DNA of 64,000 nt, from assembly GCA_017621815.1 (NCBI GenBank), contig JAGASK010000031.1:1-64000 (forward strand), given 5' to 3'. The position numbers were made by a program, and so were the translations under genes. This stretch comes from Lachnospiraceae bacterium (GTDB lineage Bacteria > Bacillota > Clostridia > Lachnospirales > Lachnospiraceae). Below, piece after piece: positions 11,898 through 25,537 of the stretch. The notes below the pieces were generated by a model. The model searched no databases, was not told where the DNA came from, and saw only the letters and a program-made list of their open reading frames with translations. Each line of letters starts with the position of its first letter. Position 1 is the first letter of the stretch.

Positions 11898-14800
11898 TCA
11901 ATCTTTTTTCACGTCCCAGACGATTTTTACATTTTCTTTACCGTATTTTTTGCTTAGAATTTCGTTCAGCGCCTCATTTGCATCCACATTGCGGTTCGGC
12001 GGAAGCTTTTTCATTACCTTCTGCTCCTCGATATAAAGAATAACGCTGTCGCTTCCGTCAGAGCCGGCTAATACCTGAAGCAGTTCTTCAATGCCTTTTT
12101 CATAATCAGACATGGTGGGGAACTTAATCCAGAGTTTCTTAGGAATATCCTGAAAAGCAGTGATTTTTTCACATATGAGTTTGCCGTCTCTGTCTTCTTC
12201 CAGAGATACCCTGCCTCTGACAAAGACCTTATTATCCTCCTGAAGCTTATCGCTGTTTTTCTCGTAATCTTTCGGGAAAACAATTACCTCAACGCTCCCC
12301 AGCAAGTCCTCGATTTGAAGGAATGCCATGATTTTATCATTCTTTGTATATTTTATTTTCTTATCGGAAATAATGCCGCCGATAATGGCTGTTGCATTAT
12401 CCTTCACCAGTGCCTGTCCTGTTTCTTCATCCAGCATAAAATCCGAGGTTGTATTCGTAATTCCCTTTTTCCAAAGTTCCTCCTGTTCCTCAAGAGGATG
12501 TCCGCTGATGTAAATACCCAGCACTTCCTTTTCAAAAGCAAGCATCATTTCCTTGGAATATTCGCCCACATCGGGAAGCTTGATATCATATTCTTCCTTC
12601 TGGTCATCGGACACAATATCAAAAAGACTCATCTGCCCTGCCATATTGTTTTTCTTATCATGAACGATATGATCCATAATCTGCACATAGGCGCTCATAA
12701 ACTGTTTCCGGGTGCCCGGCAGGGAATCAAAGGCTCCCGCTTTGATGAAATTCTCTATGGCCTTCTTATTTACATCCTTATCTGCCATCCGTGTAATGAA
12801 GTCATTCAGATTCGTATATTTTCCCCTGGCCTTCCTTTCCGTTACCACTGCATCAATAACCGGCCTTCCTATGCTCTTAATGGCGGTCAGGGCATAGCGA
12901 ATTGACTTATCGGTAACAGAAAAACCGCTTTCTCCCTGATTGATATCCGGAGGCAGAATGCTGATTCCCATGCTCCGGCAGGTCACGATATACTCCGCAA
13001 CCTTTCTGGGATTATCAATGACAGAAGTCATAAGCGCCGCCATAAATTCTACCGGATAATAATATTTCAGATAAGCCGTCTGATACGCTACTACCGCATA
13101 GCATGCCGCATGGGACTTGTTGAAAGCATACTTGGCAAAATCCATCATATCATCATAAATCTGGGAAGCCACCGACTCGGGTATACCGTTTGCAGCGCAG
13201 CCCGGAACCCCCTCTTCCTCATTGCCGTATATGAAATTGGCCCGTTCCTTTTCCATGACGGCCTGTTTCTTTTTACTCATGGCACGGCGTACCAAATCAC
13301 TTCGCCCCAGAGTATATCCGCCCAAATCACGGACTATCTGCATAACCTGCTCCTGATACACGATACATCCGTAAGTAGGAGCCAGAATCGGCTCAAGCTG
13401 GGGACAGGAATAGTAAATAGGACCTGAAGAACTTTTTCCTTTAATATACTTGGGAATAAAATCCATGGGACCCGGGCGGTACAGGGAAATCCCTGCAATA
13501 ACATCCTCCAGATTTTCCGGCTTTAACTCCTTCATGAAGTTTTTCATGCCGCCGCTTTCAAGCTGGAACACGCCGTCGGTCTTTCCTGTTGCCAGGGAAG
13601 CAAATACCTTTTTGTCATCATAGTCTATGTTGTCAATATCAATATGAATGCCTTTGCCTTTTTCAATCAGATTCACCGCATCACGAATAACGGTCAGGGT
13701 GCGCAGCCCCAGAAAATCCATCTTCAACAGCCCCAGTTCCTCAATGGTGGTCATGGTAAACTGGGTGGTAATGGAACCGTCCGCTCCTCTTGATAAAGGC
13801 ACCAGCTCTTCTGCCGGCCTGGAACAGATTACCACACCTGCTGCATGCATGGAGGTATGCCTGGGAAGCCCTTCAAGGCGCTTGCTCATGTCAATCAGTT
13901 CTTTTACCTGTCCGTCCGTTTCATACATTTTGCGAAGCTCGGGATTAATCTGCAAAGCCCTGTCAATGGTAATATTCAATTCATTGGGTATCATTTTTGC
14001 AAGGGAATCCACATAAGCATAGGGCAAATCCATAACCCTTCCCACATCTCTGATAACACCCTTTGCCGCCAGAGTACCGAAGGTAACAATCTGCACTACC
14101 TTTTCCGGTCCGTATTTGCGGCTCACATAATCAATAACCTCCTGCCGCCTTTCAAAGCAGAAGTCAATATCTATATCCGGCATGGATACCCGTTCCGGAT
14201 TCAGAAAACGTTCAAACAGCAGATTATATTTAATGGGGTCTATGTTGGTAATCTTCAGGGCATAAGAAACGATACTTCCTGCTGCTGAGCCCCTGCCCGG
14301 ACCTACCATAATGCCGTTTTGCTTTGCATAATTAATAAAATCCCACACGATAAGGAAATAATCCACATATCCCATGGATTTAATAACATTCAGCTCATAA
14401 TCAAGGCGTTCCTTCAAGGTTTGTCCCGTATCGCCCGCAGGCGCATTTTCATCCTCCCCATAACGCTCTTTTAAGCCGTCATAACAAAGCTTATTCAAAT
14501 AAGTCCAGGAATCGTATCCTTCCGGTACCTCAAAATGAGGGAGCTTCGTCACGCCGAATTCTATTTCCACGTTGCAGCGGTCCGCTATGCGCTGGGTATT
14601 TTCAACGGCTTCCCATGCATAAGTAAACAGCCCTTTCATTTCCTCTTCGCTTTTTACATAATACTGTCCGCCCACATAACGCATTCTGTCCTCGTCTGTC
14701 AGCTTCTTACCGGTCTGAATGCAAAGCAGAATATCATGGGGTTTTACATCATCCGCATAAGTATAATGAACGTCATTGGTTACCACAAGAGGAATATTCA

Positions 14801-15389
14801 ACTCTTTGCTCATCTGAATCAGGGTGGTATTTACCATTTTCTGTTCCGGCAGGCCGTGATCCTGCAGCTCCAGAAAATAGTTACCTTCACCAAAACAATC
14901 CCTGTACTTAAGCGCTGATTTTTTTGCTTCATCAACCAGGCCTTTCTGAATATAGCGCTGCACCTCACCTGCCAGACAGGCGGACAAAGCAATAATACCT
15001 TCATGATGTTCCCGAAGCAGCTCCATATCCACACGGGGTTTGTAATAATAGCCTTCTGTAAATCCACGGCTCACAATTTTCATCAGGTTATCATAGCCTG
15101 TATTATTTTCAGCCAGCAGGACAAGGTGATAATATCTGTCCTCACCGCCTGTCAGTTCTTTGTCAAAGCGGGAATTGGGCGCCACATAAATTTCACAGCC
15201 TAAAATGGGCTTAATCCCTTCCGCCTTACATTCTTTATAAAAATCAATGACGCCGTACATAACACCGTGGTCTGTAATGGCGGCACTGTTCATGCCAAGC
15301 TCCTTTACCCGCTTCACATATTCTTTTATCTTGTTGGAACCGTCCAAGAGACTGTATTCTGTATGGACGTGGAGATGCGCAAATGCCAT
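11898..15389 (-). CDS. dnaE: DNA polymerase III alpha subunit, DnaE type
   Basis: Replicative or lagging-strand DNA polymerase of the DnaE class. The product is about 1163 residues. An N-terminal PHP domain (AHLHVHTEYSLLDG) is followed by the palm with catalytic aspartates in MPDIDIDFCFERR (about residue 395) and LLKMDFLGLRTL (about 545). The fingers, a helix-hairpin-helix region (about 840-900) and an OB-fold (about 990-1080, AIIGGIISDKKIKYTK) come next. I start at the ATG at 15389, preceded by AGGAGG; the ORF extends 27 codons upstream with no support. It is followed by pfkA. Firmicutes usually carry PolC as well, which is not in this window. Confidence 0.96.
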   Translation of the reverse strand: MAFAHLHVHTEYSLLDGSNKIKEYVKRVKELGMNSAAITDHGVMYGVIDFYKECKAEGIKPILGCEIYVAPNSRFDKELTGGEDRYYHLVLLAENNTGYDNLMKIVSRGFTEGYYYKPRVDMELLREHHEGIIALSACLAGEVQRYIQKGLVDEAKKSALKYRDCFGEGNYFLELQDHGLPEQKMVNTTLIQMSKELNIPLVVTNDVHYTYADDVKPHDILLCIQTGKKLTDEDRMRYVGGQYYVKSEEEMKGLFTYAWEAVENTQRIADRCNVEIEFGVTKLPHFEVPEGYDSWTYLNKLCYDGLKERYGEDENAPAGDTGQTLKERLDYELNVIKSMGYVDYFLIVWDFINYAKQNGIMVGPGRGSAAGSIVSYALKITNIDPIKYNLLFERFLNPERVSMPDIDIDFCFERRQEVIDYVSRKYGPEKVVQIVTFGTLAAKGVIRDVGRVMDLPYAYVDSLAKMIPNELNITIDRALQINPELRKMYETDGQVKELIDMSKRLEGLPRHTSMHAAGVVICSRPAEELVPLSRGADGSITTQFTMTTIEELGLLKMDFLGLRTLTVIRDAVNLIEKGKGIHIDIDNIDYDDKKVFASLATGKTDGVFQLESGGMKNFMKELKPENLEDVIAGISLYRPGPMDFIPKYIKGKSSSGPIYYSCPQLEPILAPTYGCIVYQEQVMQIVRDLGGYTLGRSDLVRRAMSKKKQAVMEKERANFIYGNEEEGVPGCAANGIPESVASQIYDDMMDFAKYAFNKSHAACYAVVAYQTAYLKYYYPVEFMAALMTSVIDNPRKVAEYIVTCRSMGISILPPDINQGESGFSVTDKSIRYALTAIKSIGRPVIDAVVTERKARGKYTNLNDFITRMADKDVNKKAIENFIKAGAFDSLPGTRKQFMSAYVQIMDHIVHDKKNNMAGQMSLFDIVSDDQKEEYDIKLPDVGEYSKEMMLAFEKEVLGIYISGHPLEEQEELWKKGITNTTSDFMLDEETGQALVKDNATAIIGGIISDKKIKYTKNDKIMAFLQIEDLLGSVEVIVFPKDYEKNSDKLQEDNKVFVRGRVSLEEDRDGKLICEKITAFQDIPKKLWIKFPTMSDYEKGIEELLQVLAGSDGSDSVILYIEEQKVMKKLPPNRNVDANEALNEILSKKYGKENVKIVWDVKKD

Positions 15390-15437
15390 GAAAAAACCTC
15401 CTGTAATACCTGACTCATCCTGCTTTTTTATTCTATC

Positions 15438-15478
15438 AAAAAAGAAATGCCTTGGAAAGTGGTAAGGCATTTCTTTTT
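15438..15478 (-). terminator. bidirectional terminator between M56 module 1 and dnaE
   Basis: AAAAAGAAATGCCTT (15439-15453) pairs perfectly with AAGGCATTTCTTTTT (15464-15478) around a 10-base loop. The stem ends in T-runs on both strands. It ends the module 1 transcript 20 bases past the M56 stop codon and separates it from dnaE. Confidence 0.85.
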
Positions 15479-15498: not shown

Positions 15499-17688
15499 TC
15501 AATCAGCTTTGTATTTATCCAGCTTTTCTATTATACTTTGATTTAAATAGGGTGATATTTCATCAAACTGGGAATAAGTCAGTGTATTTCCCTCTTCCAG
15601 CCAGCTTATCAGACATTTTTCCAGCGAATCATCATTCAGATACGGCGCCCATTCATTCAGCATTTCAAAGGTTAACTTATCCTTCATATCAATTATCAGT
15701 TCTGCCCGGGTCTCCTCTTCTAAATACGGCATCAGTTCTGAAAGCGTTTCTGCATCAGGCGGCTCTGTTTGACCGTCCGCAATCGCCTTCGTCAAATAAT
15801 GACCGGACAATCCTTCATCAGAATAAATAAAGAAATCACACAGTTCCTCTTCGCTTAAAGTATCTCCCTGGCCAAGCAATGCTGCAAGCGCCCTGCTTGC
15901 CGCTTCATCTTCCATATATGGCAGAGCATCCATCACCTTATCTTTATCCACATGCTCACCGGTTTCGAAAGCCTCCGCAACATGAGCTGAATATTCATCC
16001 TGTTCCGAATAATATATGCTTTCCACAGCACTGTTCCCTAACCCTGAATAATCCACCTTAAGTTCCTTCAGCTTTGCTCCCTGTCCCACCATTTTAATGA
16101 CATTTCTGCCTTTCTGTAAGGATACTTCCATTCGGGTCTTTGCACCTGTGTCATTAACGAGGGAAACACTTCCGTCCGGCGCTATGCATACAATTTTGAA
16201 CTGTCCTTCCAATAGCTCAAAAGAAGTCTCCACCTGTATATCCGTTTCTTTGGAAGCGTTGACAATCAGTAAGGAATCCGCACCGTTAAAAAGCAGGCCG
16301 GAACACCTTATTTTATCACTGCCCTGATAAGAGAAAGCGCTCCACCAGTCATAAATATCTTCTCCTGCAAGCTTTTTATCATCATTGTATACCTGCCAGG
16401 CTTCTCCGTTTTTATCCATTTTTTTTATGCTCTTCTTCAGCCAGTTATCTAAATCAGCTTCCCAAAATGCTTTTTCAAGAATATTTAAATTTAACCCATC
16501 CCAGTAATCCTCATATTTCCCCGCAGCTTCATCCACAAAGGAAGTATACCTTTCTGCCAGGGACTCTCCGGAAACCTGAACCGGCATTGCATCAGGCGAA
16601 GTCTCAATACTGCCGCATGCGGTCAAAAAGCCGATTCCCATAAACGCACTTACAGAAAGTAGTATTTTAAATCCGTTTTGTTTTTTGTATTGAAGAATTC
16701 CCTTTAATCTCTCCTTCAAGTCCTCTTTTCTCTCCAATAAGGTTGTTGAAGGCACATTGCTTCCAAAAGCAATATTTTGCTCCGCCGCATTTATCAGGAT
16801 ATTGCCGTAAGCAGTTCTTCCCTCCTTTGTCAGGCTTGTAAGAACTGCCTCATCACAGGAAAGCTCACAGTCAATGTTCAGCTTTCTGACAATCAGATAA
16901 AGCACAGGATTGAACCAATGAATACAAAGCAATATCTGATAAAGCCATTTATACCACAAGTCCTTCCTTTTAATATGAATCAGTTCATGGTGAATTACCA
17001 TCTTCATTTGTGATAACTCTCTGTCTCCCTCCGGCAGGACAATCACAGGTTTCCATAAACCGATAGTAAGAGGGCTTGAAACAGAAGCGCTTTCATATAA
17101 CGCGGGTGCTCTTTTGATATGAAGTTTTTGAGCCATTTCTGCTGTCAATCCGGTTTCTTCATTTTCTGAAATCTGCGTGCTGCCGCCTCTGATACTGTCT
17201 GTAAAGTGCCTGTAATTCCACAGCTTTTTCGCAAGAATAATAACCCCGCCGAAAATCCATACAATTCCTGCTGCCATTCCCATATCCACTGCGCTTTTTC
17301 CGCCGGACAACACTGAATTTATTTCCGCAAGGGAAGCTTCTGCCCCGGAAACTCCTGAATGAACATCTTCCGGCATAACACCATTTGTCATAACATCTTC
17401 TTTTGCAACATCTTCTGCCGTAACATTTTCTGGCATAACGTTTTCTGCCTCAGTCTCCTCTGCCCGATAGTCCGAAATCTGATTTCCCACGGCTGCCGCG
17501 CTTTGGCTCTGTCCAAAGATGTCAAAATGAACGGGCAAAAGCAGCCTCAGGACAACCAGCAGCCAAACATAATAATTCCACCGTTTGGAAAAGGCTTTTT
17601 TTGTAAAAGGCCGTATCAGCAATAAAATCAAACCTGTCAATGCTCCTGACAAGGACAGCGACAATACGCACAGGATTATTTGTCTCAT
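15499..17688 (-). CDS. BlaR1-like M56 metalloprotease sensor, module 1, with C-terminal helical repeats
   Basis: Membrane sensor-protease expected to inactivate its BlaI partner on a signal. About 729 residues from the ATG at 17688 (AAAGGG upstream). N-terminal membrane helices flank a loop at about residues 75-120. The M56 site reads HHELIHIKRKD (about 233), then CIHWFNP and ELSCDE. The cytoplasmic catalytic domain is followed by a membrane helix near 340 (GIGFLTACGS resembles a lipobox) and a large exported region. The last 150 residues form five repeats of about 30 residues built around PYL/PYM (LPYMEDE, MPYLEEE, APYLNDD, SPYLNQS), HEAT-like in look. There is no penicillin-binding domain, so the ligand is unlikely to be a beta-lactam. 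It starts 31 bases after the BlaI-1 stop. Confidence 0.88.
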   Translation of the reverse strand: MRQIILCVLSLSLSGALTGLILLLIRPFTKKAFSKRWNYYVWLLVVLRLLLPVHFDIFGQSQSAAAVGNQISDYRAEETEAENVMPENVTAEDVAKEDVMTNGVMPEDVHSGVSGAEASLAEINSVLSGGKSAVDMGMAAGIVWIFGGVIILAKKLWNYRHFTDSIRGGSTQISENEETGLTAEMAQKLHIKRAPALYESASVSSPLTIGLWKPVIVLPEGDRELSQMKMVIHHELIHIKRKDLWYKWLYQILLCIHWFNPVLYLIVRKLNIDCELSCDEAVLTSLTKEGRTAYGNILINAAEQNIAFGSNVPSTTLLERKEDLKERLKGILQYKKQNGFKILLSVSAFMGIGFLTACGSIETSPDAMPVQVSGESLAERYTSFVDEAAGKYEDYWDGLNLNILEKAFWEADLDNWLKKSIKKMDKNGEAWQVYNDDKKLAGEDIYDWWSAFSYQGSDKIRCSGLLFNGADSLLIVNASKETDIQVETSFELLEGQFKIVCIAPDGSVSLVNDTGAKTRMEVSLQKGRNVIKMVGQGAKLKELKVDYSGLGNSAVESIYYSEQDEYSAHVAEAFETGEHVDKDKVMDALPYMEDEAASRALAALLGQGDTLSEEELCDFFIYSDEGLSGHYLTKAIADGQTEPPDAETLSELMPYLEEETRAELIIDMKDKLTFEMLNEWAPYLNDDSLEKCLISWLEEGNTLTYSQFDEISPYLNQSIIEKLDKYKAD
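17362..17451 (-). repeat. 15-bp coding minisatellite in M56 module 1
   Basis: Six consecutive 15-base units, most beginning AACATCTTC or a close variant on the plus strand, start at 17362, 17377, 17392, 17407, 17422 and 17437. They encode imperfect five-residue repeats (such as ENVMP, ENVTA, EDVAK, EDVMT) in the loop after the first membrane helices of the sensor protein. Confidence 0.8.
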
Positions 17689-17719
17689 ATTTTGCACCCT
17701 TTTATCCTTTCCTCTCCTT

Positions 17720-18094
17720 CTACCGGCAATTCCGGTTGAAATAGTCTCGCAGTTCCTCAATATCTTCCTTCGTCAAAGCTTCACTGTTTACCAGTGCGGC
17801 AGCCAGATTTCTGGAGCTTCCTCTAAAAAACTTATCCACGAAGTTTTTCGTCTCCTCTTTCACATATTCTTCACGCCTTATGCAGGGCAAATAATAATAC
17901 ACTTCCCGCTTTTCCTGACTGATTACGCCTTTTTTTAACAGCCTTTGAATCAAAGTCAAAACCGTAGTCCGTTCCCAGTTTTTGCTTGCATTTAACAAAT
18001 TGCGGATTTCTCCTGCATTCAAAGCTTTATCGGAAGACCATAAGACCTCCAGAATTTCCAGTTCTGCATCGGACACTGTTACTTTTCTATCCAT
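17720..18094 (-). CDS. BlaI/MecI-family repressor, module 1
   Basis: Winged-helix repressor of 124 residues, the family's usual length. The N-terminal DNA-binding domain (about 1-75) has the BlaI pattern: DAELEILEVLWSSD, then the recognition region NWERTTVLTLIQRLLKKG, then the wing EKREVYYYLP. The C-terminal dimerisation helices run from about 78 to 124. It is the first gene of the module and its promoter carries two matching operators (18136-18186), so autorepression is expected. The downstream M56 protein would relieve repression by cleaving it. The regulated target, other than the module itself, is not in view. Confidence 0.92.
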   Translation of the reverse strand: MDRKVTVSDAELEILEVLWSSDKALNAGEIRNLLNASKNWERTTVLTLIQRLLKKGVISQEKREVYYYLPCIRREEYVKEETKNFVDKFFRGSSRNLAAALVNSEALTKEDIEELRDYFNRNCR

Positions 18095-18135
18095 TTCTAC
18101 CTCCGTCTGTACTGTATCTTTATTAATCAGGACGA

Positions 18136-18186
18136 GTCTACTTTTGTAGACACTTAAAGTTTACATCCGTAGACACTATATGTCAA
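18136..18186 (-). promoter_or_regulatory. promoter and twin BlaI operators of module 1
   Basis: On the minus strand TTGACA (18186-18181), a 17-base spacer and TAAACT (18163-18158) form a sigma-A promoter. One operator, GTTTACATCCGTAGAC (18159-18174), covers the spacer and the -10. The second, GTCTACTTTTGTAGAC (18136-18151), is a perfect inverted repeat over the start site. Centres are 23 bases apart. This is the arrangement expected for BlaI autorepression. Confidence 0.85.
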
Positions 18187-18236
18187 TCCTTTCTGACAAT
18201 TATATGAAAAAAGTTTTTACTGATTTTACAATAGAA

Positions 18237-18270
18237 TACAAAACGCTGCGAAAACCAGGTTTTCGCAGCG
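18237..18270 (-). terminator. terminator of module 2
   Basis: CGCTGCGAAAACC (18244-18256) pairs perfectly with GGTTTTCGCAGCG (18258-18270). On the minus strand it is followed by GTTTTGTATT. It lies past the racemase remnant, at the end of the module 2 transcript. Confidence 0.85.
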
Positions 18271-18295
18271 CTGTAAGATTGATGCCTCGTTGCTT

Positions 18296-18400
18296 TCAGT
18301 GGGCCTTTGACGTTTTCTCCTTCACTCCATAAACTATGTCATGATAATAAGGAATTGTTGATTCCGGTCCCATTCCTCCTACCAGCCCTAATTTTTTCAT
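18296..18400 (-). pseudogene. remnant of an aspartate/glutamate racemase gene
   Basis: An ORF of 34 residues with a good ribosome binding site (AAAGGCGG) reads MKKLGLVGGMGPES followed by TIPYYHDIVYGV. This is the characteristic N-terminus of the Asp/Glu racemase family (YgeA/RacX type, normally about 230 residues). It then stops after a few more residues. The rest of the gene is absent: the terminator of module 2 follows within 30 bases. It starts 31 bases after the M56 module 2 stop. I read it as a gene truncated by an internal deletion; whether the short peptide is still made is unknown. Confidence 0.75.
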
Positions 18401-18431
18401 TTTCCAAATCCGCCTTTCTTCTATAATTAAT

Positions 18432-20126
18432 CTACCGAATTCCATTCCGATAATCTTCGGCCTCTTCCTTTGTAAGATAAACAAGACCTTCCAGCTTTCC
18501 GTTTTCATCCCTTTTAGTGACTACAGCGCCATATCCGTTTTTTTCACTGGCAGGCCGTGAAAAAAATGACCCTTTAAATTCTTCCGCATTTGCCCCATTC
18601 TGATTATCTGCAAACCAGCAGACCGGCTCACCATTATAATAAAGCTGATAATCATCTTTTGTAAATTCCGCAGTTAATCCATAATCCTTATATTTGGAAA
18701 CCAACTTTTCCACTTCTTCCTTCAGCCGTGCGGAAAAGCCTTCTTCTTCAACACCGGTACCTTCTGCCGGCATTTCCTGATTATCTGCAGCTGTTATCAA
18801 TTCTGCAATTTCTTCATTCAGTTCCTGCTCCGTCCTCTCTAACTCCTCTTCCAGCGCTTTCTTCTCCTGATTGGCTTCTTCTATTTCCTTTCTCAAAGCT
18901 TCGGCCTCTGATTCCTGCATTTCAATTAATTCCGTAAGCTGGTGAGCCTGATTCCTTTGTACCTGATAATATCCTTCTCCTTCAGGCACATAATAAATCA
19001 TATCTTTTTCCTCGTCTATTAACTGCCTGATAGGTTTGCCGTCAACTAAAAGCCTGTCGTTTTGAATATCATAAACTACTCCTATTGCTTCATAATCATG
19101 ATAAAAGTCCTCTCTGCTTTTTGTTCCTTTATATTCTACCGATGCAATTGCCTCAGTTTCCTCATACTTTACCGTATTGGTAATAAAAACCGTCAATGCA
19201 GCTGTTACTACAGCTACTGACACTATAATTCCCCAAAATGCAGACTTCTTAAATTTCATAACAGACACAATCCTTTCTTCCACCGCTCCTTTGCCAAATC
19301 CCGAACCGGTTATAAATCCAATTTTCCTCTGCTCCGCCATGGAAAGCAGTGTCAATGCATAATCCCTTCTGCTTTCTTCTCTCCGGCGGATTACTGTTTC
19401 ATCACACAGCAGCTCTATATCCCTGTTAAAAAACAAATACATGACCCACACAAGAGGATTAAACCAATGAACGCACAGTGCTATATGTACAATCAGCTTT
19501 TTCAGATTATCATGATTTTTTATATGTACTAATTCATGACTTATGTAAAAGCCTGTTTTCCGCTCCTGCATTTGACTGATTCCTTTGGGAAAAATAATAC
19601 ACGGCCGGATAATTCCATAAGTTACAGGCGTTGCCGTACGGTCCGAGGTCAGGAGTCTTATTTTTGAAAACCGTTTCAGCTCCTTTCCATTCAACCTTGC
19701 CTTATCCGTCAATATTTTCCTTTCATCTTCATCCATAGGAAGTCCTTCTTTCAATATCCGTCCATCCCGGATATAAAGAAAAGCCGAACCCAACACAATG
19801 AAAATCATTCCTGAAAAGTAAATAATTGTCACTATGGATTTCCCATTTAATGCAGCAGGTTCTTCAAATACTACAGTACTTTTTGTTTCCGTATTTTCTT
19901 CCGTAGCTGTTTCATAAGTCATCCATGCCTGCAGCCTGTGATTTTGATATTTTCCCAAATCAGGAAGCGGCACCGCAACGGAAACAGGAAAAAGCAAACG
20001 TAAAATGGCAATTTCCCAAAGTATTACCATTATTTTCTTTGAAATTTTATGCAGAAAAAGTGACCGAAATAATAAAATTCCCAAAATCAAAACACCGGCT
20101 GTTACACTCATATGTAATATGCTCAT
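18432..20126 (-). CDS. BlaR1-like M56 metalloprotease sensor, module 2, with coiled-coil C-terminus
   Basis: Second M56 sensor-protease, about 564 residues from the ATG at 20126 (GGAGG eight bases upstream). Membrane helices lie near residues 5-25, 30-52 and 98-120. The zinc-protease site is SHELVHIKNHD (about 196), then CVHWFNPLVW and ELLCDETV. A membrane helix follows near 295 (ISVAVVTAALTVFI). The extracytoplasmic part contains a Glu-rich coiled coil of about 55 residues (around LRKEIEEANQEKKALEEEL) and a short C-terminal domain with YQLYYNGEPVCWF. No penicillin-binding or M23 domain is seen, so its signal differs from those of the neighbouring modules. It begins 60 bases after the BlaI-2 stop. 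Confidence 0.88.
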   Translation of the reverse strand: MSILHMSVTAGVLILGILLFRSLFLHKISKKIMVILWEIAILRLLFPVSVAVPLPDLGKYQNHRLQAWMTYETATEENTETKSTVVFEEPAALNGKSIVTIIYFSGMIFIVLGSAFLYIRDGRILKEGLPMDEDERKILTDKARLNGKELKRFSKIRLLTSDRTATPVTYGIIRPCIIFPKGISQMQERKTGFYISHELVHIKNHDNLKKLIVHIALCVHWFNPLVWVMYLFFNRDIELLCDETVIRRREESRRDYALTLLSMAEQRKIGFITGSGFGKGAVEERIVSVMKFKKSAFWGIIVSVAVVTAALTVFITNTVKYEETEAIASVEYKGTKSREDFYHDYEAIGVVYDIQNDRLLVDGKPIRQLIDEEKDMIYYVPEGEGYYQVQRNQAHQLTELIEMQESEAEALRKEIEEANQEKKALEEELERTEQELNEEIAELITAADNQEMPAEGTGVEEEGFSARLKEEVEKLVSKYKDYGLTAEFTKDDYQLYYNGEPVCWFADNQNGANAEEFKGSFFSRPASEKNGYGAVVTKRDENGKLEGLVYLTKEEAEDYRNGIR

Positions 20127-20186
20127 TTCCCCATCCTCCATAACACCTTTCCAGAAAAGGCACATTTTGCCTGCTGCCTGCGGAAA

Positions 20187-20540
20187 TCACTGCAATTCAT
20201 CAATCATCTTCTTTAATTTTTCAATTTCCTGCTTTGAAAGCTTTTTCCCATCTAAAAATGCCGCAAAAAACTTTTCTTTAGAACCGTCAAACATTTTGTC
20301 TATAAGCTCCTCTGTTTCATATTCCTGTATTTCCTGTTTCGAAATAAGAGCACTGCAGATAAATCCCGGTTCCTCTCTTTTTACAGCTCCTTTCTCCACA
20401 CACTTTTTGATTACCGTATAAGTGGTATTTCTGTTCCAGCCAATTTCATCCTTTAAAATTCTCACAATCTGACCTGCCGGAAGCTCCCCCTTCTGCCATA
20501 ATACTTCCATTACTTTTCGTTCCGAATCAAACAATTTCAT
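20187..20540 (-). CDS. BlaI/MecI-family repressor, module 2
   Basis: A 117-residue winged-helix repressor. The DNA-binding domain shows SERKVMEVLWQKGELPAGQI and the recognition region GWNRNTTYTVIKKCVEKG. The C-terminal half (FDGSKEKFFAAFLDGKKLS) is the dimerisation part. The recognition helix differs from module 1 (NTTYTVIKK against TTVLTLIQR), in line with the different operator half-site (GACTAT against GTCTAC). It is the first gene of the module, downstream of its own promoter with two operators. Confidence 0.92.
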   Translation of the reverse strand: MKLFDSERKVMEVLWQKGELPAGQIVRILKDEIGWNRNTTYTVIKKCVEKGAVKREEPGFICSALISKQEIQEYETEELIDKMFDGSKEKFFAAFLDGKKLSKQEIEKLKKMIDELQ

Positions 20541-20635
20541 TCTCTAATCCCTCTTTCCTAAAACTTTCTACTGTAGTCAAAAATCCTGATATAAGCATGC
20601 CGCTTAGCCCGCTTTTTACAAAAACAAGCTAAAAT

Positions 20636-20691
20636 GACTATTGCAATAGTCTTTGTGTAATAAGACTATCACAATAGTCAATTTGTGTCAA
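20636..20691 (-). promoter_or_regulatory. promoter and twin BlaI operators of module 2
   Basis: Minus-strand TTGACA (20691-20686), a 17-base spacer and TAGTCT (20668-20663). Operator GACTATCACAATAGTC (20664-20679) spans the spacer and the -10; the perfect palindrome GACTATTGCAATAGTC (20636-20651) lies just downstream. Centres are 28 bases apart. It has the same layout as modules 1 and 3 but a distinct half-site. Confidence 0.87.
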
Positions 20692-20744
20692 CATATTATA
20701 AATTTCTTATTCAAATATTTTAAATATCAGTTCAGCCATGCCAT

Positions 20745-21719
20745 TCATAAGCCAAGTTCTTTGAAAAGCTTCTCCTGATACTCCGCATCCCTGGCTGCTT
20801 TCACCAGATCATCAACACGGGACTGCGCTGTTAACAGCACAATCAACCGGTTCATTCTTTCCCTTTCTTCTGCTTTTCCTTCAATTTTTCCTTCGACTTT
20901 TCCTTCATTTCTCTCATCCTCAAGCCACTCTCTTAACCCCTGACACATATCCACTTTCCCGCCTTTCTTATGCTTATCTTTGATTCTGAACATCTCTTCT
21001 TCTCCCGCATAATTTGCAACCATATCGTATGCATCCTCTTCCAGAAATGCATAGGATTCGTCCTCTTCTATGAGCTTCTTCAGTTTCTGTTTATCCTTTG
21101 AATAACGGATAAAATCAAATACCTGCTTCACATCCGTCTTAAACATATCCGTATTTGCCAGCTTTCTTATTTCCAGCACATGAATTTCATAATTTGAAAC
21201 CTTCTCCTTTAAGCTGTCAGGAATATCCGTAAAGTCCAGCAGCCCATGGATATCCCTCGCACCATCCCATTCCTTTTCACCATAGTATAAGATAAATGTG
21301 ATTGTGGGAAAAAGCCTGCTGGTCTTTTGAAAACCGTAAAGATACTCTCCCGCTGTCAGCCCTTTCCGTTTTCTTCTGACAGCTTTCCGTATCTGCATAG
21401 CCTGCCTTTCATATTCTCCTGCATCATAGCTCATGGTTCGGAGCGCCAGCCCATAGTCAATCTCTTCCTGGTTCTCAATACCGATAATTGCAAAGTTTAT
21501 GCCAAAAGGCGTTTTCCTCACCAAATCCCTGAACAAGGTTCTTTTCCATCTCTGCTTACGCCTAAAGCCCTTCATCCTTCCTCTGTACACCCTGGAATCA
21601 AGTTCCTGTAAATCCTTTCCTTTCACGAATGCGGTGCCGTTGCATCCGAAACCATTTATAATGTCCGCATACCGTTCATTATCGGAAAAGAAGCTGTTGC
21701 TGTAAAAATCCTTTTCCAT
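20745..21719 (-). CDS. Rpn-family recombination-promoting nuclease / putative transposase
   Basis: PD-(D/E)XK-type nuclease of the Rpn (YhgA-like, transposase_31) group, 324 residues. The N-terminus has the family start FFSDNERYADIINGFGCNG and KGKDLQELD. The nuclease core reads FAIIGIENQEEIDYGLALR, with the E-x-Q of the family, followed by YDAGEYERQ. A central region (about 150-250) and a charged low-complexity segment (EGKVEGKIEGKAEERER) lead into the C-terminal helix. It lies between BlaI/M56 modules 2 and 3, and its ribosome binding site can be hidden in a hairpin. Members are widespread mobile-type genes in Lachnospiraceae; no terminal inverted repeats or target duplication were found. 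Confidence 0.88.
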   Translation of the reverse strand: MEKDFYSNSFFSDNERYADIINGFGCNGTAFVKGKDLQELDSRVYRGRMKGFRRKQRWKRTLFRDLVRKTPFGINFAIIGIENQEEIDYGLALRTMSYDAGEYERQAMQIRKAVRRKRKGLTAGEYLYGFQKTSRLFPTITFILYYGEKEWDGARDIHGLLDFTDIPDSLKEKVSNYEIHVLEIRKLANTDMFKTDVKQVFDFIRYSKDKQKLKKLIEEDESYAFLEEDAYDMVANYAGEEEMFRIKDKHKKGGKVDMCQGLREWLEDERNEGKVEGKIEGKAEERERMNRLIVLLTAQSRVDDLVKAARDAEYQEKLFKELGL

Positions 21720-21725
21720 CCTCTT

Positions 21726-21765
21726 CCTCCTGTAATCTTGCAGGAGGTCTCCGGAAATCTCCTGC
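21726..21765 (-). promoter_or_regulatory. candidate SD-sequestering switch upstream of the Rpn gene
   Basis: On the minus strand, CAGGAGG (21732-21726) is the ribosome binding site six bases before the Rpn ATG. It is exactly complementary to CCTCCTG at 21747-21741, with an eight-base loop. That anti-SD segment is also complementary to GCAGGAG at 21765-21759. Two mutually exclusive seven-pair stems are therefore possible, one hiding and one freeing the ribosome binding site. Confidence 0.6.
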
Positions 21766-21789
21766 TTTTAATAAAATATGATTGGGTAA

Positions 21790-21970
21790 TTAAAAGCATA
21801 TGCTTATCAACATTACTGTTTCATAAGCGGCAGATTTCCTAAGATTCTTTGATATACCGTACAATTTACAGCACAGTATTAAGAAAGGCATGATGCCTGA
21901 TTAATATAGAAATACTTTATCCTTATTGAACTGCTATTGTTCAATAAAGTATGCTTTGATAAAAGCATAT
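21790..21970. repeat. palindromes and direct repeat in the gap between the Rpn gene and module 3
   Basis: The 346-base gap at 21721-22066 holds no gene that I can support. It contains the palindrome AAGCATATGCTT (21794-21805), the inverted repeat ATTGAAC/GTTCAAT (21925-21931 with 21939-21945), and a perfect hairpin TATGCTTT/AAAGCATA with a four-base loop (21950-21969). The last may act as a weak terminator for module 3. The 10-mer AAAAGCATAT occurs at 21792 and again at 21961. Confidence 0.5.
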
Positions 21971-22066
21971 CATATAAAATAACGATATGCAATATATTTT
22001 TATTTATTTCCACGTGCAATAAGCCAGGCCTCCACTGTCACTCCCTGCATTCGTTACGGCAATATT

Positions 22067-23764
22067 TTACTCTTGAAACTCCGGCTCAATATAGCTTCCG
22101 CCCCGGCTGACGGCAAAATGCAAATGAGAGCCTGTACTGAGACCCGTACTGCCTACAGTGGCAATCTGTTCTCCCCGTTTTACTTCGCTGCCTTCTTCTC
22201 CCAGAATTTCTTCACAGCAGGCATAATATGTCATATCACCGTTACTATGCTGTAAAATAATATAATTTCCGCATTCCACATCAAATCCCGTCTCAACCAC
22301 TGTACCATCCGCAGCTGCCGTTACCGCCGTTCCCGCATCCGCTGCAAAGTCAATTCCGCTATGCAGTTTTTCCTGCCGGGTAACCGGATGGATTCTTGTA
22401 CCGAAGCCGTCGGAAATCCTGGCAGACTCTACCGGATAGGAATATAAAATTCTCATATCGTTGTGAATCCCCGTTTCATTAAGCAGCAAATTCTCAAATT
22501 GATCCCTGGCAGGAACATAATTAGTAATTGTTTCATTATCTTCTTCTGATACAAAATACTCACTTTCATGCCCGTCATATGAATCCGAGCCGGGAATGCT
22601 CTCTATGTAATTATATTCCTGTTCCCCGGAATTTTCTGCCGGCTTATCGTATTCCTCATAGGGCTTTAAAAATGAGGAATCTCCGTCTGCATTCTCTCCT
22701 GCCGCAGAAAGCTCCGGCTGCTGCTCCACTAATACTTCCATATTACCTGGAGATACTTCCGGCAGGCTTTCAGCTGTTTCCTTGCGATTAATCAGCAAAA
22801 TAACAACCACTGCCGCCACGATGACAGCTGCCGCTGTCATTCCCCAAAAGGAGGTCTTCTTTAAATTCACAGCATTCTTTATTCTGCTCTTTACACTGTT
22901 TTCACCGAATCCGATGGGATACCCGGGCTGCCACCCTTCTTTCAGAGACAAGTTCAAAAGCGTATTGGCGTACTCCTTCTTTCTGTCAAATCCTATTTTC
23001 CGAAGCACTGCCTCATCGCAGGAAGCTTCCATATCACGTTCCATAAATGAAAATGCCGCCCAGACCAGAGGATTAAACCAATGAATACAGCATATCAGAA
23101 ACGCAGCCGGCTTTATAAGATAATCCAAACGCCTGATGTGCATTTTTTCATGCTCTGTCACAAGTTCTCTTTGCACATCACTCAGTTTATCCGGCAGGTA
23201 AATAACAGGACGCAAAAAACCTGCCAAAAAGGGAGTGTTTATATTGTCTGAAGTCCGGATATAAAAGCTTCGGCCTTTTCCTGCTGTTTTCATTATCCTG
23301 CCGTTTTCTTTTCGGAGCCTTCCCATAAAGGTACCGTAACTGATTACTTCATATAAAATAAGCATGCATCCTATAAGCAGCCAGATAATTGCCAGTATTC
23401 TCACAATCTTATAGGGTAATCCCTTATCCTGATTCAGTTCCTGCTTTTCTTCGCTCATCCTGCTTCCTGTTTCCGGATTCACTGTGCTTAAATCCGCCTT
23501 ATCCGGCTTATATCCATACTCCATTTTCTGTGTTCCCGCTTCATTTGAAAGTTTTTCAAGCTGCGCAACGGACATATCCGGCACAACGCCAAAGTCCGCC
23601 TGTAATGTAACAGGACATATCAAACGGATAAACACCGCAAGCCACAAAAAATAAGAAAAAGCTTTAGGCGCTTTTTTCAGGCAAAATCTTGCTGCCATCA
23701 CCGCCAGCATGACAAAAGAAGCCGTAATGCTCATATTTACTACAACAGTAAAAAGTTTTACCAT
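22067..23764 (-). CDS. BlaR1-like M56 sensor, module 3, fused to an M23 (LytM) domain
   Basis: Third M56 sensor, about 565 residues from the ATG at 23764 (AAAGG eight bases upstream). Membrane helices lie near 5-25, 33-55 and 120-140. The M56 site is TEHEKMHIRRLD (about 204), then CIHWFNPLVW and MEASCDEAVL. A helix near 310 (VIVAAVVVILLI) leads into an exported Glu/Tyr-rich linker. The last 117 residues are an M23 domain: SDGFGTRIHP, then HSGIDFAADAG (zinc His and Asp) and HLHFAV (HxH). Where M23 enzymes have YxH, this protein reads YACC, so one catalytic His is Cys. The domain is probably a peptidoglycan-binding or impaired sensor module. It follows BlaI-3 by 22 bases. Confidence 0.9.
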   Translation of the reverse strand: MVKLFTVVVNMSITASFVMLAVMAARFCLKKAPKAFSYFLWLAVFIRLICPVTLQADFGVVPDMSVAQLEKLSNEAGTQKMEYGYKPDKADLSTVNPETGSRMSEEKQELNQDKGLPYKIVRILAIIWLLIGCMLILYEVISYGTFMGRLRKENGRIMKTAGKGRSFYIRTSDNINTPFLAGFLRPVIYLPDKLSDVQRELVTEHEKMHIRRLDYLIKPAAFLICCIHWFNPLVWAAFSFMERDMEASCDEAVLRKIGFDRKKEYANTLLNLSLKEGWQPGYPIGFGENSVKSRIKNAVNLKKTSFWGMTAAAVIVAAVVVILLINRKETAESLPEVSPGNMEVLVEQQPELSAAGENADGDSSFLKPYEEYDKPAENSGEQEYNYIESIPGSDSYDGHESEYFVSEEDNETITNYVPARDQFENLLLNETGIHNDMRILYSYPVESARISDGFGTRIHPVTRQEKLHSGIDFAADAGTAVTAAADGTVVETGFDVECGNYIILQHSNGDMTYYACCEEILGEEGSEVKRGEQIATVGSTGLSTGSHLHFAVSRGGSYIEPEFQE

Positions 23765-23786
23765 ATGTAATCCTTTCCCGCAGCAT

Positions 23787-24146
23787 TCACTCTGCGTTCT
23801 CATCAATAAACTTTTTCATTTCTTCCGCTTCTTCCAAAGACAGCTTCCTGCTGCCGCAGAAGGCCGCTAAAAATTTAGGTAAAGAGCCTGCAAAAACATC
23901 TTCAATATATTTTCTGCTCTGCATACCGTAAAATTCCTCTTTACTGAGTTTTGCACTTACTATTGCATTTTCATTTTGGAAAATTCCCTTTTGGCACAGT
24001 TTCTTAAGCACCGTATAAGTTGTTGATTTTTTCCAGTCCATTTCCTTTTCACATAATTTTACTAATTCCATAGAGGAAACAGGTTCATTTGCCCATATGA
24101 TTTCCGCAAATCTTTCTTCCGCTTCCCCCAGCTTATAATCTCCCAT
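23787..24146 (-). CDS. BlaI/MecI-family repressor, module 3
   Basis: A 119-residue winged-helix repressor with EERFAEIIWANEPVSSMELV and the recognition region DWKKSTTYTVLKKLCQKG. The C-terminal part FAGSLPKFLAAFCGSRKLS matches the dimerisation segment of module 2 closely, so modules 2 and 3 look more related to each other than to module 1. It is the first gene of module 3, with two GTCTAT-type operators on its promoter. Cleavage by the adjacent M56 protein is the expected inactivation route. Confidence 0.92.
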   Translation of the reverse strand: MGDYKLGEAEERFAEIIWANEPVSSMELVKLCEKEMDWKKSTTYTVLKKLCQKGIFQNENAIVSAKLSKEEFYGMQSRKYIEDVFAGSLPKFLAAFCGSRKLSLEEAEEMKKFIDENAE

Positions 24147-24183
24147 AGCATATTCCTCCCGTCGGAAAAATTACTCTTCACAG

Positions 24184-24242
24184 GTCTATCATAAATAGAC
24201 CTTTTCTAAAACAAGTCTATTACCCATAGACCAGTTTGTCAA
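24184..24242 (-). promoter_or_regulatory. promoter and twin BlaI operators of module 3
   Basis: Minus-strand TTGACA (24242-24237), a 17-base spacer and TAGACT (24219-24214). Operator GTCTATTACCCATAGAC (24215-24231) covers the spacer and the -10; GTCTATCATAAATAGAC (24184-24200) lies just downstream. Centres are 31 bases apart. Confidence 0.87.
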
Positions 24243-24328: not shown

Positions 24329-25537
24329 TTATAAATATTTCTTTAAATCCTCTGTTTTGTCAAGCTTCTCCCAAGGCAAATCAAGGTCATTGCGTCCGAA
24401 ATGTCCGTAAGCTGCTGTCTGCTTGTAAATCGGACGGCGTAAATCAAGCATCTTAATAATTCCGGCAGGACGTAAATCAAAGTTTTCCCTGATAATATCT
24501 ACCAGCTTTTCATCTGAAAGCTTTCCTGTTCCGAAAGTGTCCACCATAATGGAAGTAGGCTGTGCCACACCGATTGCATAGGACAGCTGGATTTCACATT
24601 TATCAGCAAGTCCTGCGCCGACAATGTTCTTTGCCACATAACGTGCCGCATAAGCTGCGCTTCTGTCTACCTTGGTGCAGTCTTTTCCTGAGAAAGCGCC
24701 GCCGCCGTGACGGGCATATCCGCCGTAGGTGTCTACGATAATCTTACGGCCGGTAAGACCTGCATCACCGTGAGGCCCGCCGATTACAAAACGGCCCGTG
24801 GGATTGATAAAATACTTGGTGTTTTCATCCAAAAGCTCCTTAGGAAGAATGGGGTCAAACACATATTTCTTAATATCCTCATGAATCTGTTCCTGAGTTA
24901 CATCCTCGTCATGCTGTGTGGACAATACAACAGCTTCCAAACGGATGGGTTTGCCGTTCTCATCATATTCTACGGATACCTGGCTCTTTCCGTCAGGTCT
25001 TAAGTAACTTAAAGTACCGTCCTTACGCACCTTGGTAAGCTGTCTTGCAAGCTTATGTGCCAGTGAAATGGAATAAGGCATATATTCTTCTGTTTCGTTG
25101 GTTGCATAACCAAACATCATTCCCTGGTCACCTGCGCCGATTGCTTCTATTTCTGCATCAGACATTTTGTTTTCTGCAGCAGCGTTTTCCTGCTGTTTGG
25201 CTTCCAACGCCTTATCAACGCCCATTGCAATATCTGCAGACTGTTCATCAATGGCTACAAGCACTGCACAGGTATTGCCGTCAAATCCGTATTCGGATTT
25301 GGTATAACCGATTTCCTTTACAGTATCACGCACAACTTTCTGAATATCAACATATGCGTTAGTGGTAATCTCACCTGTTACAAGGACAAATCCTGTACAG
25401 GTAGCTGTTTCACACGCCACACGGCTCATAGGGTCTTTTTCCATACATGCATCAAGTATGGCATCTGAAATGGCATCGCAGACTTTGTCAGGATGGCCTT
25501 CTGTTACTGATTCTGAAGTAAATAATCTTTTCTCCAT
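24329..25537 (-). CDS. metK: S-adenosylmethionine synthetase
   Basis: Makes SAM from methionine and ATP. The 402-residue product has [12 protein letters not shown] at the N-terminus, the signature [12 protein letters not shown] near residue 130, the P-loop-like [21 protein letters not shown] near 255, and [19 protein letters not shown]. All parts of the three-domain fold are present. AGGAGAGAAG precedes the ATG. Expression is controlled by the SAM-I riboswitch in its leader, a classic feedback loop: high SAM favours the terminator. Confidence 0.97.

Follow-up and report, generated by a model that had tools for sequence, protein, structure and literature searches.

The window analysed here, 64,000 nucleotides of a Lachnospiraceae bacterium (contig JAGASK010000031.1, positions 1 to 64,000), lies on contig C19 of a draft genome, G000, of 3.50 Mb in 52 contigs that is 91.6% complete. 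On its minus strand, on which all features of the window given below lie, genes for BlaI repressors (PF03965) and M56 receptor proteases (PF05569) alternate, three of each, from position 24146 to 15499 between metK and dnaE. Read along that strand, the first module consists of BlaI-3 (23787..24146; 77.8 bits; type 3, recognition helix WKKSTTYTVLKKL, placed in the type-3 clade of the tree described below) and M56-3 (22067..23764; 178.9 bits; HEKMH), which ends in an M23 domain (PF01551, 102.1 bits). BlaI-2 (20187..20540; 94.7 bits; type 2, helix WNRNTTYTVIKKC) and M56-2 (18432..20141; 138.7 bits; HELVH), whose exported domain probably contains a coiled coil as judged by eye, form the second. 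The third is made up of BlaI-1 (17720..18094; 103.4 bits; type 1, helix WERTTVLTLIQRL), with the MecI structures 1sd6 and 1okr among its relatives, and M56-1 (15499..17688; 204.8 bits; HELIH), which has a genus-restricted exported domain. All three repressors exceed the PF03965 cut-off (78-103 bits versus 22.6), and all three receptors match PF05569 at 139-205 bits and keep HExxH. The Pfam matches and gene positions thus bear out three repressor-protease pairs in a row on one strand, as proposed in an earlier note on this DNA that was made from the sequence alone. In the genome as a whole, BlaI is found at six places and there are also six M56 genes, one of which was matched in two pieces; the remaining three pairs lie on contigs C4, C17 and C25.

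Each repressor gene has a promoter of the form TTGACA-17-TANNCT, which we confirmed by reading the sequence: TTGACA-17-TAAACT in module 1 (18158..18186; TTGACA 18186-18181, TAAACT 18163-18158), TTGACA-17-TAGTCT in module 2 (20663..20691; TTGACA 20691-20686, TAGTCT 20668-20663) and TTGACA-17-TAGACT in module 3 (24214..24242; TTGACA 24242-24237, TAGACT 24219-24214). A consensus scan scores modules 1 and 3 at 10/12; module 2, whose -10 element fits TATAAT at 3/6 positions, is unlisted. Two operators are predicted at each promoter. In module 1 these are O1, GTCTAC-N4-GTAAAC (18159..18174), and O2, GTCTAC-N4-GTAGAC (18136..18151); in module 2 both read GACTAT-N4-ATAGTC (O1 20664..20679, O2 20636..20651); and in module 3 both read GTCTAT-N5-ATAGAC (O1 24215..24231, O2 24184..24200). 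O1 covers the spacer and the -10 element in modules 1 and 3, and in each module its right half forms the -10 (TAAACT, TAGTCT, TAGACT). The centres of the two operators are 23, 28 and 31 base pairs (bp) apart in modules 1, 2 and 3, the distances previously given. The half-site sequences also stand as first read, but the halves are separated by 5 bp in module 3 and by 4 bp in modules 1 and 2; spacer length is a second operator variable beside the half-site, which the earlier note had not remarked. The upstream dyad of module 1 is imperfect (GTCTAC..GTAAAC). The same right half, GTAAAC, occurs in 13 of 18 genomes with type-1 promoters (a count of printed promoter rows), and it brings the -10 element closer to consensus. 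By position and conservation, the dyads over all three promoters would be autoregulatory.

In the home genome, GWCTAYN4RTAGWC is matched exactly at three of the four operators of modules 1 and 2, the fourth being one mismatch off, and nowhere else; GTCTATN5ATAGAC is matched exactly at the two operators of module 3 alone. When one mismatch was allowed, backward-read control patterns gave 233 and 25 matches versus 28 and 6 for the operators. Raw site counts therefore show no excess over the control, and the evidence lies in the paired placement at promoters. Among 2440 mononucleotide-shuffled promoters, none had two sites (at most two mismatches each) 18-45 bp apart for any of five patterns, and single sites matched in about 0.1-0.5% per pattern. 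The possibility that the dyads arose by chance was ruled out by these shuffled promoters together with the placement of sites in the whole-genome searches. In two other modules of the same genome (L037 on C25 and L035 on C4), one operator is the reverse complement of the other over its whole length, the spacer as well, and each promoter thus contains one long inverted repeat.

To compare operators with repressors, 37 genomes of the genus were searched; PF03965 is present in 33 of them, with up to 15 copies per genome. The BlaI matches listed, the stretches around metK and M56, and another 60 places yielded 150 BlaI frames, 123 of them distinct, and 122 promoters were used after a duplicate from the home genome was dropped. 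This set includes L107_5152 (a weak match, 24 bits) and L160 (with only 133 bp upstream). Repressors were first assigned to groups by patterns in the helix; trees of the 80 pairs that had sufficient M56 sequence (type 1, 16; type 2, 14; type 3, 10; bla-like, 4; T3b, 1) then served as a check. With at most one mismatch in 12 positions, GTCTAY-N4-RTAGAC was found in 18/18 type-1 promoters, GTCTAY-N5-RTAGAC in 16/16 type-3 promoters and GACTAY-N4-RTAGTC in 13/17 type-2 promoters. A bla-like group (helix W[SN]PKTIQTL) carries TATTAC-N4-GTAAKA in 13/13, and the small group T3b (C25 of the home genome and L117 of G008) carries GTTTAC-N5-GTAAAC in 2/2. Pairs of a group's own pattern, searched with at most two mismatches, occur in 18/18 type-1, 16/16 type-3, 2/2 T3b and 4/13 bla-like promoters. 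The distance between centres is 23 bp in 18/18 type-1 promoters and 28-33 bp in 16/16 type-3 promoters; for type 2 it is 28 bp in 8 of the 12 pairs found among 17 promoters. The operators are thus kept group by group in related genomes, and the promoter comparison supports the proposal of an array of BlaI/M56 sensors whose operators are distinct, conserved and particular to each group. In a subgroup of type 2 with helix LGWNKNTTYTLIKRC and close forms (L066, L093 and L148), the dyads apparently read GACT-N5-AGTC by eye, three bases shorter than those of type 2. A very weak BlaI-like match (L107, 2653-3099; 24 bits) has a symmetric AGTTCT-N4-AGAACT site upstream.

The tandem, same-strand layout, with an open reading frame (ORF) of weak transposase similarity inside it, could suggest that the array arose by recent duplication in tandem or as a mobile island, as copies of one module with drifting operators. 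We regard this as very improbable. The modules of the window share only 26-38% identity in BlaI and 31-33% in M56, and in trees of 80 BlaI and 80 M56 domains types 1, 2, 3 and the bla-like group each form one clade in both, every type grouping with the orthologues of other species; on this ground a recent duplication was rejected. BlaI and M56 have been co-inherited as pairs and, judged by the trees and identities, the modules are old orthologous groups that were inherited separately. Their order is conserved as well, 3-2-1 in 8/8 multi-module genomes (the window, G003, G004, G007, G008, G027, G031 and G035), given that the contig of G004 ends before dnaE, metK is further off in G027 and inverted in G031, and the type-2 BlaI of G007 has no M56 following it. 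All three modules occur in the window and in G008 only, other stretches having types 3 and 1, types 2 and 1, type 1 alone or type 3 alone. metK was found in 33/37 genomes, and its surroundings were examined in 30 besides the window, many ending at contig ends. Twenty-one stretches, the window included, hold both metK and dnaE; at least one module lies between the two genes in 13 and none in 8. In a second set of named type-1 loci (L203-L228), 22/26 are titled Lachnospiraceae; of the others, two are titled 'uncultured bacterium', one 'Bacterium 1xD8-48' and one 'Clostridium sp.'. In G035 and G007 the type-3 M56 frames are in pieces (L104, L172), so this receptor may be decaying there.

The ORF between modules 3 and 2 (20745..21719, 324 residues) is unrelated to the array, with a Transposase_31/YhgA match below cut-off (Pfam E 0.009). 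It is missing from the same place in G008, where M56-3 is followed by the type-2 BlaI after 128 bp. Upstream the array is flanked by metK (24329..25537), named by sequence recognition and conservation without a family search, and downstream by dnaE (11898..15470; likely start MAFAHLHVH), named by sequence recognition, likewise without a family search. A hairpin scan places a terminator-like hairpin of 14 pairs between modules 2 and 1 (18242..18272).

The earlier note had seen no target gene other than the modules and suggested a scan of the full genome for the operators; the exact and one-mismatch searches uphold its view. Among the 37 genomes there are 18 exact type-1 sites, 17 of them just upstream of a type-1 BlaI gene, and 34 exact type-3 sites, 31 at type-3 BlaI promoters; the four strays (L168, L192, L272 and L273) are all inside ORFs. 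Of 28 one-mismatch sites elsewhere in the home genome, 25 lie inside mechanical ORFs and three are intergenic, one of which lies next to what seems to be the terminal part of a gene for a tRNA or tmRNA. No two of the 28 are close together, and the intergenic three have no listed second site (two-mismatch partners were not sought). A distant regulon was accordingly not found, in exact searches for types 1 and 3 across the 37 genomes and for type 2 in the home genome only. Nor was a resistance gene found in the home genome: the operons contain none, and the searches turned up neither a further exact operator nor a pair of one-mismatch sites, although weak sites could escape.

The nearest candidate target is dnaE, the next same-strand gene in many type-1 loci, and module 1 might drive it and so couple envelope stress to replication. 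We consider this improbable because a hairpin with a T run (15440..15478) separates M56-1 from dnaE. The hairpin was recognised by eye, is absent from the scan list (scan loop limit 8) and recurs in 9/10 other stretches by eye, none being evident in L088. Several type-1 modules, moreover, have other neighbours. Apart from dnaE, no close third operon gene recurs behind M56 of the window types among the neighbours of relatives' loci. At a distance of 159-165 bp, M56-2 is followed by a lipoprotein gene in L088 and L204; in L100-L102, M56-3 is followed at 476-629 bp by a gene for a small membrane protein. Neither arrangement is repeated in the window, and the starts of these genes are uncertain.

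As operators track the repressor group, nearly all exact type-1 and type-3 sites lie at the repressors' own promoters and no distant regulon was found, we think it likely that the locus holds three ancient, separately inherited, private autoregulated BlaI/M56 switches side by side. Each BlaI dimer would repress solely the blaI-M56 operon that encodes it, acting on two operators, of which the first spans the spacer and -10 element and the second follows just downstream. When the exported domain met an envelope signal, the M56 protease would cut its cognate BlaI and the operon would be released. At the DNA level, two features would keep the switches private, the half-site (GTC or GAC, TAC or TAT) and the number of bp between the halves (4 or 5), and the output would be the receptor itself or something non-transcriptional. 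Here BlaI binding, cleavage, insulation and the envelope signal are what we infer; the gene pairs, the anatomy of promoters and operators, its group-wise conservation, the lack of other strong sites in these searches and the co-inheritance of BlaI and M56 were observed.

A number of results weigh against such strict privacy. The type-2 operator (at most one mismatch) is also present in 4/18 type-1 promoters; elsewhere across groups only the type-1 operator crosses, in 1/2 promoters of group T3c, the other cross cells being zero. Pairs of a foreign pattern, with up to two mismatches, occur in 5/18 type-1 promoters (type-2 pattern), 3/17 type-2 promoters (type-1 pattern) and 2/2 T3b promoters (type-3 pattern), and a bla-like pair occurs in 1/17 type-2 promoters. 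Four of the 17 type-2 promoters lack the type-2 operator when one mismatch is allowed, and only 10/17 have a type-2 pair when two are. The claim that the recognition helix varies in step with the operator holds in part: T3b shares the type-3 helix core WKKSTTYT and yet differs in its half-site (GTTTAC-N5-GTAAAC versus GTCTAT-N5-ATAGAC), so the helix core alone is insufficient to set the half-site. Across the genus the backward-read control gave numbers similar to the operators (44 versus 34 for type 3, 13 versus 18 for type 1); the counts are thus uninformative, and it is the placement that is informative. Weak regulon sites would escape our searches; the home genome is an incomplete draft; and a sensor operon without a target gene is odd. 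Finally, modules 2 and 3 look alike by eye where they align with the cleavage site of MecI (FFAAFL and FLAAFC), so that protease cross-talk between these two could occur; in BlaI-1 the residues aligned to the N-F cleavage bond are A-L.

Some of these points would fit a partly cross-talking network, in which repressors and proteases of the modules act on one another in a graded envelope response. The half-sites are one or two bases apart, type-1 and type-2 operators overlap in some genomes, and in S. aureus BlaI and MecI can stand in for each other, according to one study (PMC3305447). However, group-specific operators are kept in 18 genomes for type 1 and in 16 for type 3, the type-3 spacing is one bp off that of types 1 and 2, and the 106 promoters outside type 3 all lack a type-3 site (at most one mismatch). 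On balance, we hold such a network to be rather unlikely. The earlier note had left open insulated or partly cross-talking sensors, and its interpretation as a whole is partly supported.

The exported domains differ from module to module. The earlier note's expectation that none of the three sensors binds beta-lactams agrees with the Pfam search (E<=0.01), in which no transpeptidase or penicillin-binding domain was matched in the three M56 proteins; NF000326 matches stop at residues 358, 365 and 325, with 80-144 bits versus a cut-off of 400. The M23 domain proposed for module 3 was recovered by Pfam, whereas the helical repeats of module 1 and the coiled coil of module 2 are plausible by eye. 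A sequence search for PDB relatives of the module-1 exported domain gave none at E<=1, and a profile of that domain, run against one genome from each of 200 genera in the family, matched the home genome alone (E<=1e-20). In G003 and G004, type-3 receptors (L079, 13651-15297; L086, 2852-4498) carry an exported domain of the type-2 kind and not M23. These swapped receptors are still paired with type-3 BlaI and operators. On sequence grounds, the exported domain is freer than the BlaI/M56 pairing, indicative of sensor swapping.

If there is no further target, the receptor might itself be the effector, the only regulated product being an exported domain fused to a protease (M23 in module 3, lipoprotein-like in module 1). 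The failure to find a distant operator, or a close recurring third gene except dnaE, is in keeping with this, and the module-1 domain may undergo lipid modification and be released as a lipoprotein by signal peptidase II. Active M23 endopeptidases have Zn ligands plus two further His residues. The M23 domain of M56-3 keeps H-x3-D and HxH, but Cys replaces the His of YAHL, which makes hydrolase activity doubtful; that His is kept in only 5/13 type-3 M23 domains by eye. The M23 domain of L097 also lacks the first Zn-ligand His. We therefore treat the receptor-effector idea as possible but tentative, and the evidence in module 1 bears on it further.

In lipoproteins, a lipobox follows a charged, hydrophobic signal. 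Where its last membrane segment ends, M56-1 reads LTAC-GS after a charged and then hydrophobic stretch (16615..16626; Cys358 codon 16617-16615), a putative internal lipobox. By a loose motif it was found in 14/15 type-1 receptors of a first set, the exception being G030 (L053), and in 25/26 of the second set, the exception being L226; the two sets overlap in many genomes. The 60 further places had 1-kb flanks, and there the last membrane segment was not scorable. In controls it is nearly absent: bla-like 0/13, type 2 0/7, type 3 1/16 (mid-helix), T3b 0/1 and others 1/5 (the C17 receptor of the home genome), while 3 of the 24 scorable remote relatives among L229-L258 match the pattern. The home genome's M56 on C17 (L036, about 883 residues) ends its last membrane segment with a lipobox-like AAGC. 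Residues A357 and C358 are invariant in an 11-row type-1 alignment whose rows were not selected for the motif, the motif-less G030 copy being too short to enter. The residue after Cys, which the pattern does not constrain, is G, A or S in 25/25 matches of the second set. Positions -3 to +1 were selected for in the composition count; +2 was unselected and is S in 17/25. LspA (PF01252) is matched at two places in the home genome.

In BlaR1, four membrane segments precede the extracellular C-terminal domain (PMC3305447), and the last of them would therefore run inside-out, like a lipoprotein signal. Lipoprotein processing of M56-1 is thus possible, and the lipobox suggests that the exported domain of type-1 receptors becomes a lipoprotein. 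A fuller proposal, which we offer as a conjecture that will probably need revision, is that signal peptidase II splits type-1 receptors at the lipobox into a membrane-buried M56 protease and a lipid-anchored exported domain that would talk non-covalently, that this receptor/lipoprotein pair would be the sole regulated output and its own effector, and that the genus would keep several private BlaI operator systems per cell. The near restriction of the motif to type 1, the invariant A357-C358 and the LspA matches speak for the receptor as effector; the absence of the motif from G030 and L226 speaks against it. A literature search, in which subscription papers are thinly covered and a print record may exist, returned no paper on BlaR1 with a lipobox and none on BlaI, BlaR1, operator and half-site together.

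Like BlaI-BlaR1 and MecI-MecR1 of S. aureus and B. licheniformis, the three modules combine a winged-helix repressor with an M56 membrane protease in a single operon, carry dyads at their promoters and, as read from sequence, would be autoregulated. The half-site spacing of types 1 and 2 equals that of the B. licheniformis OP1 oligonucleotide, which contains TTAC-N4-GTAA (PMC3305447). Module 1 shows the BlaI/MecI spacing TAC-N4-GTA and module 2 the form TAT-N4-ATA; module 3 has N5. The modules differ from those systems in that no penicillin-binding sensor domain is reported and no resistance gene is in view, and in having a group-specific operator per paralogue, the 5-bp spacing of type 3 and the internal lipobox of type 1. 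The CopY/TcrY copper repressors resemble the repressors here by BlaI-like profile (TIGR02698 42-77 bits, below the cut-off of 122), but here the partners are M56 receptors and there is no copper-transport gene in the operons. The module-3 M23 domain matches chains of the endopeptidases ShyA and LytM and of EnvC, which with NlpD belongs to the LytM-type activators, and retains H-x3-D and HxH as they do; it differs in being fused behind an M56 protease and in the Cys at the YAHL His. Like lipoproteins processed by Lgt and LspA, type-1 receptors have L-[ST]-A-C-[GAS] closing a hydrophobic stretch with K or R before it; in contrast to them, the receptors bear this motif internally, behind the last segment of a protein that spans the membrane several times.

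BlaI/BlaR1 is mainly familiar as a switch of beta-lactam resistance. In this genus of gut Lachnospiraceae, there are up to 15 BlaI paralogues per genome, the operators of the tested groups differ in half-site and spacing, and for types 1 and 3 nearly every exact site genus-wide lies at the repressor's own operon. This raises the question of what role a sensor operon without a target has. The internal lipobox is a possible new receptor architecture that is directly and cheaply testable, and the repressor groups with their operators offer ready natural material from which to work out the BlaI-operator code and to obtain orthogonal repressors.

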